Of a stretch of 36,359 nt of DNA, positions 22,668 through 26,043 are shown piece by piece. The translations under genes and the position numbers were made by a program. Each line of letters opens with the position of its first letter. The stretch's first letter is position 1. This DNA is from Muribaculaceae bacterium. GTDB lineage: Bacteria > Bacteroidota > Bacteroidia > Bacteroidales > Muribaculaceae. The notes under the pieces were generated by a model. It had not been told where the DNA came from, searched no databases, and saw only the letters and a program-made list of their open reading frames with translations. Location: assembly GCA_003979155.1 (NCBI GenBank), contig RYWL01000013.1, forward strand, positions 1 to 36,359, written 5' to 3'.

Positions 22668-23861
22668 TTATTTGAATTTTGAAATGCGTCCCGTAAGAAT
22701 GCAGGCGTTGGTCGAAGTTTCGTTTATCATGAAGATAAACGAGCGGTTGAGTTCAAAACGATGTTTATTCGGATCTAATGGTGAAAGAACAACCTTGTCA
22801 CCTGTTGTGGCTGCTACTTCCGCTCCGTTTTCGTCAAGTTTTATATAGGATTCTTGTTTTACTTGTATTGTCATGTTTTTGGAATCCACATCCAGGGGAG
22901 TATCGAGACCATAAATGCCAAGAGAGGCGAATATGTTGATACAATCATCTATGGTTTTGGAAAGTTCAAATTTAGGAACGAAAAGGTCGCATTTCACCTT
23001 GTTGAATTCTATGTCTGCCAAGTCTTCATAACTAAGATTTGCGATATAATCGTTGATATCACACCCTTCATCGGGAAGAATAAATGTGCACGTGAAAGCT
23101 CCGTTGCCGAATTCACGTCGGCACGCTGTGAAGTTTTCGCCGCCGTACAAATATTCATATCCGTCGAGGCGTTTCATCATATCCACCATATAGATTTTTT
23201 CACCGACATGGAATTTTTCCTTCGTCGTGTTTCTTTCTGAGAATTTGTCTTTCCATTCGCTGTTGAAATACATAGCATTGAGCACCATGCTGTCAAAGGG
23301 TTTTCCGTCATAAAATTGCGTGATTTTCCCTTCGGTATTTTCCTTTATCCAATTGTTTACTAAAATTTTAGTTTCGGGTTTATTGTGGTCGCATGGGAAA
23401 AATTCAGTGCTGAAATGATTTGAAAGATTTTCTTTTGCAGCCGCTTTGAGTGAATATTTGTGGTCGTACCACACAGAGTTTGCAAGTGTCAATGTTGTTG
23501 ACTTATCGAGAGAGCCGAGGCTTGCAAGCATTTTGGCGTTGAAGGAATTAAGCGCGTCAATATTCGATGAACCGAGCGCTTTGAAAATCTGTGACTGAGT
23601 ATTCTCGGAGCAGTAGTTTGCCTGCATTGACAGATACATCGCCGCGCTCAGAGGCGATATGATAAGATTCTCATTCTTATCCTCTTGTGCCACAAGAGCT
23701 TTGAATATATCGGTGTTGAATTCGCCCATGTCCTCGCTCACCACCAGTTCAGCGGTGCTCAGTCCGACACGGGTATTGTCTACAATCGGCTCTTCGCTCG
23801 AGCAAGCGGTTATAAAGGATATGGCCGCGACAACTGCTATTATTAAATACCATTGTTTCAT
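22668..23861 (-). CDS. Serpin-family protease inhibitor, lipoprotein
   Basis: A 397-residue complete serpin. The signal peptide ends in a lipobox at Cys20 (ISFITAC), followed by SSEE, an acidic start like the surface-export signals of Bacteroidota lipoproteins. Family motifs include NLIISPLSAAMYLSMQ, LTLANSVWYD, NNWIKENTEGKI, LNAMYFNSEWKDKF and, at the end, FELNRSFIFMINE. The reactive-loop hinge ENGAEVAATTG is rich in small residues, as in inhibitory serpins; the scissile bond probably lies in VVLSPLDP but I cannot fix P1. Upstream, only 4 nt away, is a collapsed C10 protease gene. The gene is far more AT-rich than its neighbours. Confidence 0.93.
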   Translation of the reverse strand: MKQWYLIIAVVAAISFITACSSEEPIVDNTRVGLSTAELVVSEDMGEFNTDIFKALVAQEDKNENLIISPLSAAMYLSMQANYCSENTQSQIFKALGSSNIDALNSFNAKMLASLGSLDKSTTLTLANSVWYDHKYSLKAAAKENLSNHFSTEFFPCDHNKPETKILVNNWIKENTEGKITQFYDGKPFDSMVLNAMYFNSEWKDKFSERNTTKEKFHVGEKIYMVDMMKRLDGYEYLYGGENFTACRREFGNGAFTCTFILPDEGCDINDYIANLSYEDLADIEFNKVKCDLFVPKFELSKTIDDCINIFASLGIYGLDTPLDVDSKNMTIQVKQESYIKLDENGAEVAATTGDKVVLSPLDPNKHRFELNRSFIFMINETSTNACILTGRISKFK

Positions 23862-23865
23862 AAGA

Positions 23866-24217
23866 TTATTTTTTAAGGATGATATACATATTTAGAGTGC
23901 CAAAATCGGTATTGGTATGGAATCTGTCTGGTTCATCATATTCTTTCCCTTTGGAAGGATTTAATATGTCGGACAGGAAGTATCCATTATCCAATCCACC
24001 CCATCCCCAATTATAATGTAGATAGACATAGCCTGCAATTTTTGTATGCTATAGCCCAGGCTATCGCATCTTCTGGTGAGTGTTTGACCGTTTCGTTTTG
24101 GATTTTTTTTGGAACAGATACACAATCGTTGTCTATGGCATTCTGACAAGATGCTAAAAATAGTATTGCGGCAGCCGCCAATACTACAGTTCGTGATTTA
24201 ATTAGTTGTTTTCGCAA
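23866..24217 (-). pseudogene. Collapsed C10 (streptopain-like) cysteine protease gene
   Basis: Two fragments in different frames meet near an AAAAA run at about 24040. The upstream one starts with TTG at 24217 and encodes a lipoprotein-like signal (ILFLASC) and a propeptide-like stretch ending SPEDAIAWAIAY. The other encodes YLHYNWGWGGLDNGYFL, the C-terminal block of C10 peptidases (compare SpeB's YHVNWGWGG), and runs to a TAA at 23866-23868. A one-base shift in the A-run would join them into about 115 residues. The central catalytic part with the active-site Cys and His is missing, about 250 residues in typical members. It therefore looks like an internal deletion plus frameshift. The stop lies 4 nt before the serpin ATG. 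Confidence 0.75.
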
Positions 24218-24510
24218 GTTGTATGTTAATTAGGTGTTAGATTAAGAAAATAGTAGTTGTTGTTCCGGAGTTTATTAAATTAGTAGTAATGGCTGTTTTT
24301 TATTTCTTTCAATTCGGTATTCAACGGCCGGTATTTAATGAAAAATTTTATAAACAACAAATAGTTGATGTGAAATAATGTTAAATTGCTCCGGCGCTTA
24401 TCCGGGAATTTGCACGCCTGAGCGCCCCAATGTCATGAAAGAATAAGCATTGGAGTCGGGGCGCGAACATGCCGACGCAGAAAGTTGCCGGATATGTTAA
24501 TATATAAACA
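24218..24510. other. AT-rich intergenic region with nested inverted repeat
   Basis: I see no credible gene here. The part nearest the C10 relic (24218-24400) is very AT-rich and should hold the promoter of the relic-serpin unit, but no clean -33/-7 pair was found. At 24422-24464 there is a nested inverted repeat: GCGCCCC (24422-24428) with GGGGCGC (24458-24464), and CCAATG (24427-24432) with CATTGG (24448-24453). Confidence 0.5.
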
Positions 24511-24545
24511 AAAAAACGGGCGACACCTCTGCGGGGCCGCCCGTT
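24511..24545 (-). terminator. Rho-independent terminator of the atp-nuo run
   Basis: AACGGGCG at 24515-24522 pairs with CGCCCGTT at 24538-24545. On the minus strand the stem is followed by a run of T's (complement of the A's at 24511-24516, continuing upstream), giving a strong terminator about 20 bp after the nuoN stop. Confidence 0.85.
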
Positions 24546-24564
24546 GTATTGGTTGAGATTTTTA

Positions 24565-26043
24565 TCAGCCGATGAAGTACATGTTGATTGCGGATACTTC
24601 GCTGAGTTCGAGCAGGCTGCTGTAGAAGAAGCTGACGATACCGAGGGCGAGGATGCCGGCAACGGTGAGCCAGAGTCCGATACGCTCGCTGCATGTGCTG
24701 CGGAAGTTGGGTATCTGGCAATCTTCGTCGCTGATGAACATCGCTTTCACTACAAGGAGGTAGTAGTAGAGTGATACAATTGTGTTAATCAAGGCGATGA
24801 GCACAAGCACGTAGATTGCTACGCTGCCCTGGTTGATAGCTCCGGTGAAGATGAAGAACTTGGAGAAGAATCCTGCGAAAGGCGGGATGCCTGCCAGTGA
24901 GAACATGGCCAGCATCATTGCTACCGACAGACGGGGGTTGGTGCGGTAAAGGCCGTTGTAATCGTCCATTGATACTTTGCCCGTGGCGCGCTCGATTGCG
25001 CCGATTACGCCGAATGCTGCGAGGTTGGAGAAGATGTAGACGAGGATGTAGTACATCATTGCTGCCATACCCATAGCGTTGTAGGCAATCACGCCGAGCA
25101 TGATGTAGCCTGCCTGCGAGATTGACGAGAAGGCGAGGAAGCGCTTCATGTTGCGCTGGCGGATGGCGAAGAGGTTGCCTACGGTGATTGTGATAATAAT
25201 CAGTGCGTAGAGCATCCACTCCCATACCTGGCTGTAGAGCGAGCCGAATACCTGGCAGAGAATTACCAGGAAGGCGAAGGCAGCCGCGCCTTTGGAGATT
25301 ACAGAGAGGTAAGAAGTCACCGATGTGGGTGCTCCCTGGTAAACGTCGGCTGTCCAGAGGTGGAAGGGAACAAGCGAGAGTTTGAAGCCTATACCTGCGA
25401 TGACGAATGCAAGCGCCATGACGAGCATGATGCTCATCTGGCCGGTGAGAGCAAAGTATATTTTCTCGAAGTAGAGTGAGCCGGTGAGGCCATAGACGAA
25501 GGAGAGGCCCATCATGAAGATTGCCGATGAGAATACGGCGGTGAGCATGTATTTCACGGCTGCCTCGTGGCTCTCATAGCGGTTTTTGTCAAGAGCCACC
25601 ATTGCTGCGAGGGGCAGAGATGCGCTTTCGAGGCCGATGATGAAGAGCAGGAAGTGGCGCGCCGATATCATAAGGTACATGCCGAAGAGTGTGACGAGCA
25701 GAAGCTCGTAGAACTCGCCGCGGCGCATGTTCATCTGTTCACCGTTGGCCCACGATATCGACTGGAGCAGTACGATGACTACACCGATGTTGAGAATTCC
25801 TTTGATTGCAGCGATAACAGCCGAGGTCTCGTACATGCCGGCAAAAGCTGTTGTTGTGCAGCTTGAGCCGAAGCACTGGCTGCAGAAGCCGGCTGCCGTG
25901 GCGGCGAGCATGAGTATGGTCGCTACTGCCGGAAGGCCTTTCTGCGTCGACTTAGGCATGAAGGTATCATAGAGGAATACCAGCAAGAACACCACCAGAA
26001 GGGTGATTTCCTGCTTCATAGCTAAAAATTGTGAGTAATCCAT
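24565..26043 (-). CDS. nuoN: NADH-quinone oxidoreductase subunit N
   Basis: A 492-residue antiporter-like membrane subunit of Complex I. About fourteen hydrophobic segments are visible. The conserved glutamate is E139 in FIIGLES, and the antiporter core GFKLSLVPFHLWTADVYQGAPT with its Lys is intact. It is one of three homologous proton-pumping subunits with NuoL and NuoM in this operon. It starts 21 bp after the nuoM stop and is the last gene before the terminator. Confidence 0.95.
   Translation of the reverse strand: MDYSQFLAMKQEITLLVVFLLVFLYDTFMPKSTQKGLPAVATILMLAATAAGFCSQCFGSSCTTTAFAGMYETSAVIAAIKGILNIGVVIVLLQSISWANGEQMNMRRGEFYELLLVTLFGMYLMISARHFLLFIIGLESASLPLAAMVALDKNRYESHEAAVKYMLTAVFSSAIFMMGLSFVYGLTGSLYFEKIYFALTGQMSIMLVMALAFVIAGIGFKLSLVPFHLWTADVYQGAPTSVTSYLSVISKGAAAFAFLVILCQVFGSLYSQVWEWMLYALIIITITVGNLFAIRQRNMKRFLAFSSISQAGYIMLGVIAYNAMGMAAMMYYILVYIFSNLAAFGVIGAIERATGKVSMDDYNGLYRTNPRLSVAMMLAMFSLAGIPPFAGFFSKFFIFTGAINQGSVAIYVLVLIALINTIVSLYYYLLVVKAMFISDEDCQIPNFRSTCSERIGLWLTVAGILALGIVSFFYSSLLELSEVSAINMYFIG

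Follow-up and report, generated by a model that had tools for sequence, protein, structure and literature searches.

A lipoprotein serpin behind a degenerate C10 cysteine protease gene in a Muribaculaceae genome, recurrence of the C10-serpin pair in relatives, and a putative inhibitor role

C10 cysteine proteases of Bacteroides are co-transcribed with adjacent staphostatin-like proteins, most of them lipoproteins, that are predicted to be inhibitors, as described in the available portions of two reports (PMC2873492, PMC3462683). According to the accessible text of the former, the zymogens are predicted to be anchored to lipid via the propeptide, and maturation would free the enzyme; the latter, in its available part, states that Spi and the staphostatins are thought to be cytoplasmic. 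The role of prokaryotic serpins has been termed enigmatic or still to be elucidated, and in the available sections of PMC8233489 and PMC8201313 they are mostly discussed against host proteases, which the characterized serpins of gut and oral bacteria inhibit. Miropin was reported to inhibit gingipain K and a calpain-like peptidase (accessible part of a review, PMC8201313), and papain-like cysteine proteases can be inhibited by serpins (PMC7863939, available text). C10-inhibitor operons and bacterial serpins are each known separately, and their pairing appears to be new: the two never occurred together in the literature covered, and no report of a C10-serpin operon was found among the titles and abstract openings searched, a coverage that most subscription journals fall outside.

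In the present study, we analyzed a stretch of 36,359 nucleotides from a Muribaculaceae genome (hereafter, the window), in which a serpin gene is preceded by two pieces of a C10 gene (Table 1). The serpin matched Pfam Serpin (PF00079) with an E-value of 7.3e-64, residues 46-394 covering profile positions 4-368 of 370, and its AlphaFold2 model (pLDDT 82.6, pTM 0.81) retrieved conserpin as the top Foldseek match (E 2.2e-31) and miropin (5ncs) at E 1.3e-28; the protein has a full-length serpin domain and the serpin fold. Its hinge, ENGAEVAAT, is of the inhibitory type, as defined by P17 Glu, P15 Gly, and small residues at P12-P9: P17 Glu and P15 Gly are kept, with Ala at P14 and Val at P12 in place of the Thr and Ala of the consensus (available part of PMC8233489). 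Counting 17 residues from the hinge places a Pro at P1', and, thus, the bait bond must sit elsewhere in the loop, which contains a low-pLDDT stretch at residues 356-368. Since the serpin was modeled as complete with a low-confidence and probably flexible loop, it may still be inhibitory toward some target. A scan of the window for RNA families and tRNAs returned none. A terminator-like GC-rich hairpin with a T run, recognized by eye only, lies at 24497-24560 and separates an NADH-dehydrogenase-like gene (24565-26043) from the serpin operon.

Table 1. Coordinates of the serpin gene, its parts, and the C10 remnants in the window
Feature	Position	Strand	Basis
Lipoprotein serpin, 397 aa, complete frame	22668..23861	-	Pfam Serpin, AlphaFold2, and Foldseek
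Reactive center loop, inhibitory-type hinge ENGAEVAAT..., predicted P1 region VVLSP	22746..22832	-	Hinge listing
Signal peptide and lipobox Cys20 of the serpin lipoprotein	23802..23861	-	C20 invariant across a 21-sequence alignment
Spacer, 4 nt, from the stop of the C10 remnant to the serpin ATG	23862..23865	-	Sequence
C-terminal C10 remnant, HYNWGWGG...GYFLSDILNPSK (HYNWGWGG...GYFL block)	23866..24048	-	C10 profile 379-431; streptopain match
N-terminal C10 remnant: lipobox leader and start of I69 propeptide, TTG start	24011..24217	-	C10 profile 5-60

The original prediction held that the frame ending 4 nt before the serpin ATG carries the HYNWGWGG...GYFL block of C10 peptidases and that the fragment upstream combines a lipoprotein leader with a propeptide-like stretch, the catalytic core being absent; both statements were borne out. 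Against a 440-position profile built from 22 C10 ORFs of relatives (21 upstream of serpins and one long C10), the C-terminal remnant scored an E-value of 8.8e-17 among the frames of its region and 1e-14 when searched among all collected ORFs. Scored on its own against Pfam Peptidase_C10, it reached 16.1 bits (E 0.014), under the cut-off of 26, and among PDB chains its best match was streptopain (E 4.6e-5), with interpain A at 0.012. The N-terminal remnant carries a lipobox and matched the profile at E 3.5e-5. The two remnants lie in separate frames with a junction near 24040 and between them lack approximately 318 model positions (61-378), among which are the catalytic Cys and His; what survives is the leader with the beginning of the propeptide and some 50 C-terminal residues that carry the H-x-N-W-G-W block. 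Judged from its sequence, the window C10 gene is a pseudogene that encodes no working family member. Another family for the HYNWGWGG piece was also considered and ruled out: Pfam and NCBIfam gave no match to a different family, the top PDB matches were C10 proteases, and the weaker ones were unrelated, such that the C10 assignment stands.

Six serpin loci were found in the genome that contains the window (1.76 Mb, 76% complete). Its C10 matches number four without counting the remnant, and three of them are immediately upstream of serpins (contigs C27, C63, and C114). After the removal of fragments matching fewer than 150 profile positions, the serpin searches in 37 genomes of the genus left 70 distinct serpin ORFs, of which 60 were scorable. 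A C10 was present upstream of 33 (21 in one frame and 12 in pieces) and absent at 27, one of the latter being an 81-aa fragment. This scoring slightly favors pairs, because three of the 12 loci with pieces were kept despite little upstream DNA, whereas ten hitless loci with little upstream DNA were set aside; without the three, the ratio is 30/57. The same 12 include a locus in which another lipoprotein lies between the serpin and an intact C10 (L009), a locus cut by a contig end (L039), and a leader-like match only (L088). Hand arithmetic from 128 C10 matches in approximately 91 Mb (rounded sizes) of the 37 genomes gives approximately 0.01 same-strand C10s expected by chance within 250 nt upstream of 60 serpins, and the observed adjacency is, therefore, far above chance.

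One-frame C10-serpin pairs were also present in eight other genera of the family. Full C10 genes directly upstream of serpins in relatives, which the original prediction had proposed to look for, thus exist, and their wide occurrence lends support to its suggestion that the C10 of the window was later lost. Outside the family, no C10 was found upstream of the serpins from other Bacteroidales families in the same retrieval (0/14; one matching serpin, from genome G060, was excluded and one fragment dropped) or in a second sample from 26 such families (0/30 loci), which comprised the best-scoring match from 30 of 103 matching genomes with 368-1419 nt upstream per locus and had three loci in common with the first. 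Searches starting from C10 returned matches in 25 of 49 genomes of the genus (E <=1e-20; a few were I69-only or in long frames), in 53 of 297 genomes and 14 of 30 genera of the family (E <=1e-25), and in six of 393 genomes of the order, three of which were outside the family. A serpin was immediately downstream in seven of the eight contigs recovered by the C10 query, which appear to duplicate loci of the genome sample and are, hence, not independent cases. Other proteases upstream of C10-free serpins were also considered, and a Pfam scan of 20 ORFs upstream of serpins revealed none that recurred; its peptidase matches were a diverged C10 (L068) and, both in other-family loci, an M24 aminopeptidase and an S24-like regulator. 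That the adjacency is accidental or that the fragment was misread and is not C10 at all would be in keeping with its score under the Pfam cut-off; however, the match to the relatives' profile and the recurrence in the genus and the eight further genera refute this explanation, which we regard as extremely improbable.

The intact C10s from serpin loci share a domain order of leader, I69, and C10. In a Pfam scan of ten C10-side proteins, I69 (Spi-type inhibitor/propeptide) was detected in all ten and Peptidase_C10 over the cut-off in eight; the remaining two were free-standing I69 ORFs, and each of the eight catalytic-domain proteins, which are one-frame relatives upstream of serpins, carried both the C10 domain and the I69 propeptide. 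The catalytic residues, which we take to be those of the known C10 motifs, were conserved in an alignment of 21 serpin-linked C10s to the extent of 21/21 for Cys, 20/21 for His, and 17/21 for Asn of H-x-N-W-G-W. In 78 of the 89 cases with a following ORF, the partner frame opened upstream of the C10 stop or no more than 60 nt past it; this distance was taken to the opening of the stop-to-stop frame and underestimates that to the start codon. Several loci depart from the simple pair. Two mutually unlike I69 lipoproteins, free-standing and in frames of 160 and 164 aa, directly precede serpins at L059:4169-5923 and L045:4423-6278, where the C10 catalytic domain is absent; these are possible double-inhibitor operons. 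A compound cluster in the order serpin-C10-serpin occupies L135:2-3989, and L095:1744-6568 has two C10 genes in succession, with an outer-membrane-like ORF behind the first and a serpin behind the second. At L113:1-2844 (genome G030, contig C2), a C10 is followed by a 260-aa frame with a lipoprotein and then by a serpin, i.e., two partners in one operon.

By a simple rule, a lipobox was present in 34 of the 45 serpins that follow a C10 and in 48 of 78 C10s, and, with lipoprotein leaders on many of both, the two proteins would share a compartment. This is also in line with a different proposal, in which the serpin is no inhibitor of the C10 lipoprotease but either protects it, or its product, against other proteases or serves it as a substrate or activator element, and the serpin-linked C10s already own an inhibitor in the form of the I69 propeptide. 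However, Spi and the staphostatins, which are the partners in this kind of slot, are regarded as inhibitors, and so, by resemblance, are Bfi/Bti (available parts of PMC2873492 and PMC3462683); in addition, the hinge of the window serpin is of the inhibitory type. We consider a shielding or substrate role to be doubtful.

The position behind the C10 is also used by other genes, most of which encode lipoproteins. Following 90 distinct short C10s or C-terminal pieces, the next ORF was a serpin in 45 cases and another ORF in 44, with none within 500 nt in one (L136); this sample is biased toward serpins, since searches for serpins supplied part of it and serpin-linked C10s were the seed of the profile. 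Of the 44 non-serpin partners, 25 formed ten small groups and 19 were singletons; by the simple rule, 31 of the 44 had a lipobox versus 46 of 517 control ORFs. The three C10s found outside the family were likewise followed by non-serpin frames, each with a lipoprotein-like leader. Among eight non-serpin partners scanned in Pfam, L138 matched BACON over the cut-off, and a weak match to BACON was the only other notable result; an NCBIfam scan of the same eight gave nothing over the cut-offs. Structure prediction for a partner family of four members gave five models with pLDDT values from 36 to a best of 73, and the fold showed a weak likeness to lipocalins (best E 4.6e-3; no listed match with a TM above 0.45), which hints at a staphostatin-like barrel. 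Partner type was clustered on a quick tree of 78 C10s, 38 of them with a serpin, and changed 13 times, at least seven of which were forced by supported branches, versus a shuffled mean of 26. As read from these neighborhoods, the C10 partner slot is a general one, and the serpin is one occupant among several. Several groups of unannotated small proteins, mostly lipoproteins, lie immediately downstream of C10 lipoproteases (L175:2018-2728, L133:2715-3326, L097:5324-6241, L160:96-965, and others) and are candidates for new cysteine-protease inhibitors, to which the slot, thus, offers a route.

Regarding the fate of the two genes, a broken or truncated C10 was present beside the serpin at 12 loci (the window, C27, C63, C120, G006:C248, G005:C12, G023:C11, the first copy in G018:C29, G033:C74, G034:C18, G070:C118, and G128:C88). 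Large parts were missing in seven, and a single stop or frame change was present in five, which could be assembly errors. G077:C86 and G247:C127, with stops inside the match in the C10 search yet one frame on re-reading, were left out. The serpin frame was complete in 11 of the 12, the serpin at C27 being without an in-frame leader. Conversely, a scan behind the 44 C10s that have no full serpin detected leader-like matches but no broken serpin body; the one other match, at L095, was the serpin of the next operon, clipped by the scan window. Some C10s beside non-serpin partners were fragmentary as well. If the downstream gene serves as protection from the upstream one, the protease is expected to be lost first. 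In the window's own genome, a serpin that is 61% identical to that of the window (L035:4008-5235, contig C52) is split into two frames, with no C10 found upstream, and this split serpin counts against a one-sided decay of the protease.

The reactive loops did not set the paired serpins apart. The hinge was located in 39 paired and 27 unpaired serpins and could not be placed in 14 and 16, respectively, and, among those located, the paired serpins had mostly inhibitory-type hinges and small P1 residues. P1 was Ala, Ser, or Thr in 26/39 paired versus 14/27 unpaired serpins and Lys or Arg in 0/39 versus 4/27; no loop signature peculiar to C10-paired serpins was found in this comparison of 39 with 27, which showed no clear difference. 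Small P1 residues fit elastase-like proteases. The mostly small P1 residues would, therefore, also suit a model in which the C10 and serpin are co-expressed but have separate targets, the serpin acting against serine proteases of the host or neighbors in the manner of miropin and the siropins, and the C10 degrading host or dietary protein. The known gut and oral bacterial serpins inhibit host proteases (available parts of PMC8201313 and PMC8233489), and this model is also favored by the C10-free serpins, i.e., all 30 of the second other-family sample and 27 of the 60 in the genus. However, it leaves unexplained why, behind C10s of the same subfamily, the place of the serpin is taken by other lipoproteins and why the loss of the protease is one-sided, and we regard separate targets as possible, albeit unlikely.

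The distances among C10s and among serpins correlated with r 0.595 over all 38 pairs (0/5000 shuffles as high) and with r 0.20 in the 30 pairs that were left after close pairs had been removed (82/5000 as high), which points to a weak co-divergence once close pairs are removed. At L030 and L034, the C10s are 88% identical and the adjacent serpins 41%. Based on this mismatch and the weak distance correlation, the serpin may be exchanged or may diverge more quickly than its C10. A broader proposal is that C10 lipoprotease cassettes form a modular system, used as a weapon or for processing, whose single exchangeable slot can hold a serpin, a free I69 domain, a lipocalin-like barrel, or a lipoprotein of the BACON-like or another kind, and in which the partner is a fast-diverging cognate inhibitor of the immunity type that is kept as an orphan after protease loss. 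If so, the serpins of this gut family would be immunity proteins against their own and their neighbors' C10 proteases; we consider this proposal to be improbable.

Taken together, we favor, with a probability of approximately 0.62, the reading that the window serpin is a self-protection inhibitor of the C10 of its operon and has outlived the protease here. The putative inhibitor role is suggested by analogy: C10-inhibitor operons are laid out in the same way, other lipoproteins replace the serpin in the slot, and decay is one-sided, affecting the protease. The ancestral locus would have been a two-gene operon encoding a C10 cysteine lipoprotease of the outer-membrane type, with a Spi-like (I69) propeptide, and then the lipoprotein serpin, the latter occupying the operon position of the Bacteroides staphostatin-like proteins. 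The two genes would presumably be co-transcribed and both products located at the cell's own envelope, where the serpin would trap C10 molecules that are activated too early or wrongly or that remain there; as a suicide inhibitor, its reactive loop would be cleaved and the enzyme held covalently. In the window, the protease would have been lost through an internal deletion, and the harmless inhibitor would have stayed behind the 5' end of the remnant. The absence of a loop feature in paired serpins, the weak co-divergence, and the 27 C10-free serpins in the genus argue against the inhibition of C10, as does the cytoplasmic location assumed for Spi and the staphostatins, unlike that of an exported serpin. 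The recurrent C10-serpin operon names a specific endogenous candidate target for bacterial serpins, and, if the favored reading is correct, the theme of the C10-inhibitor operon extends to serpins, with one slot taking a metastable suicide inhibitor or other small proteins.

Among the described systems, miropin of Tannerella forsythia is likewise a Bacteroidales serpin with the same fold, although no C10 partner was mentioned for it in the portions of the literature covered. The small lipoproteins beside the KLIKK proteases of the same species are inhibitors called potempins. In the available text of PMC4404884, each secreted KLIKK protease is located beside a dissimilar small putative lipoprotein, as in the C10 slot; however, the lipoprotein there precedes the protease and is not a serpin, and the term C10 occurs zero times in that text. 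SpeB-Spi of Streptococcus pyogenes and the staphopain-staphostatin pairs also have a protease gene adjoining an inhibitor gene, which is dedicated and co-transcribed in those systems (accessible parts of PMC2873492 and PMC3462683), whereas Spi is a propeptide analogue, staphostatin is lipocalin-like, and the serpin is unrelated to both and exported, although two relatives, L059 and L045, carry a free-standing I69 lipoprotein before the serpin. In the bfp-bfi and btp-bti loci of B. fragilis and B. thetaiotaomicron, the partner is small and within 35 bp of the protease, and co-transcription was demonstrated for several pairs; in the available text of the two reports (PMC2873492, PMC3462683), the word serpin occurs zero times. 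The loci described herein resemble them in that a C10 lipoprotease with a propeptide directly adjoins an exported, mostly lipoprotein partner, and differ in that this partner is a serpin of approximately 400 aa instead of a staphostatin-like protein of 116-138 aa, some of which are encoded upstream of the protease.
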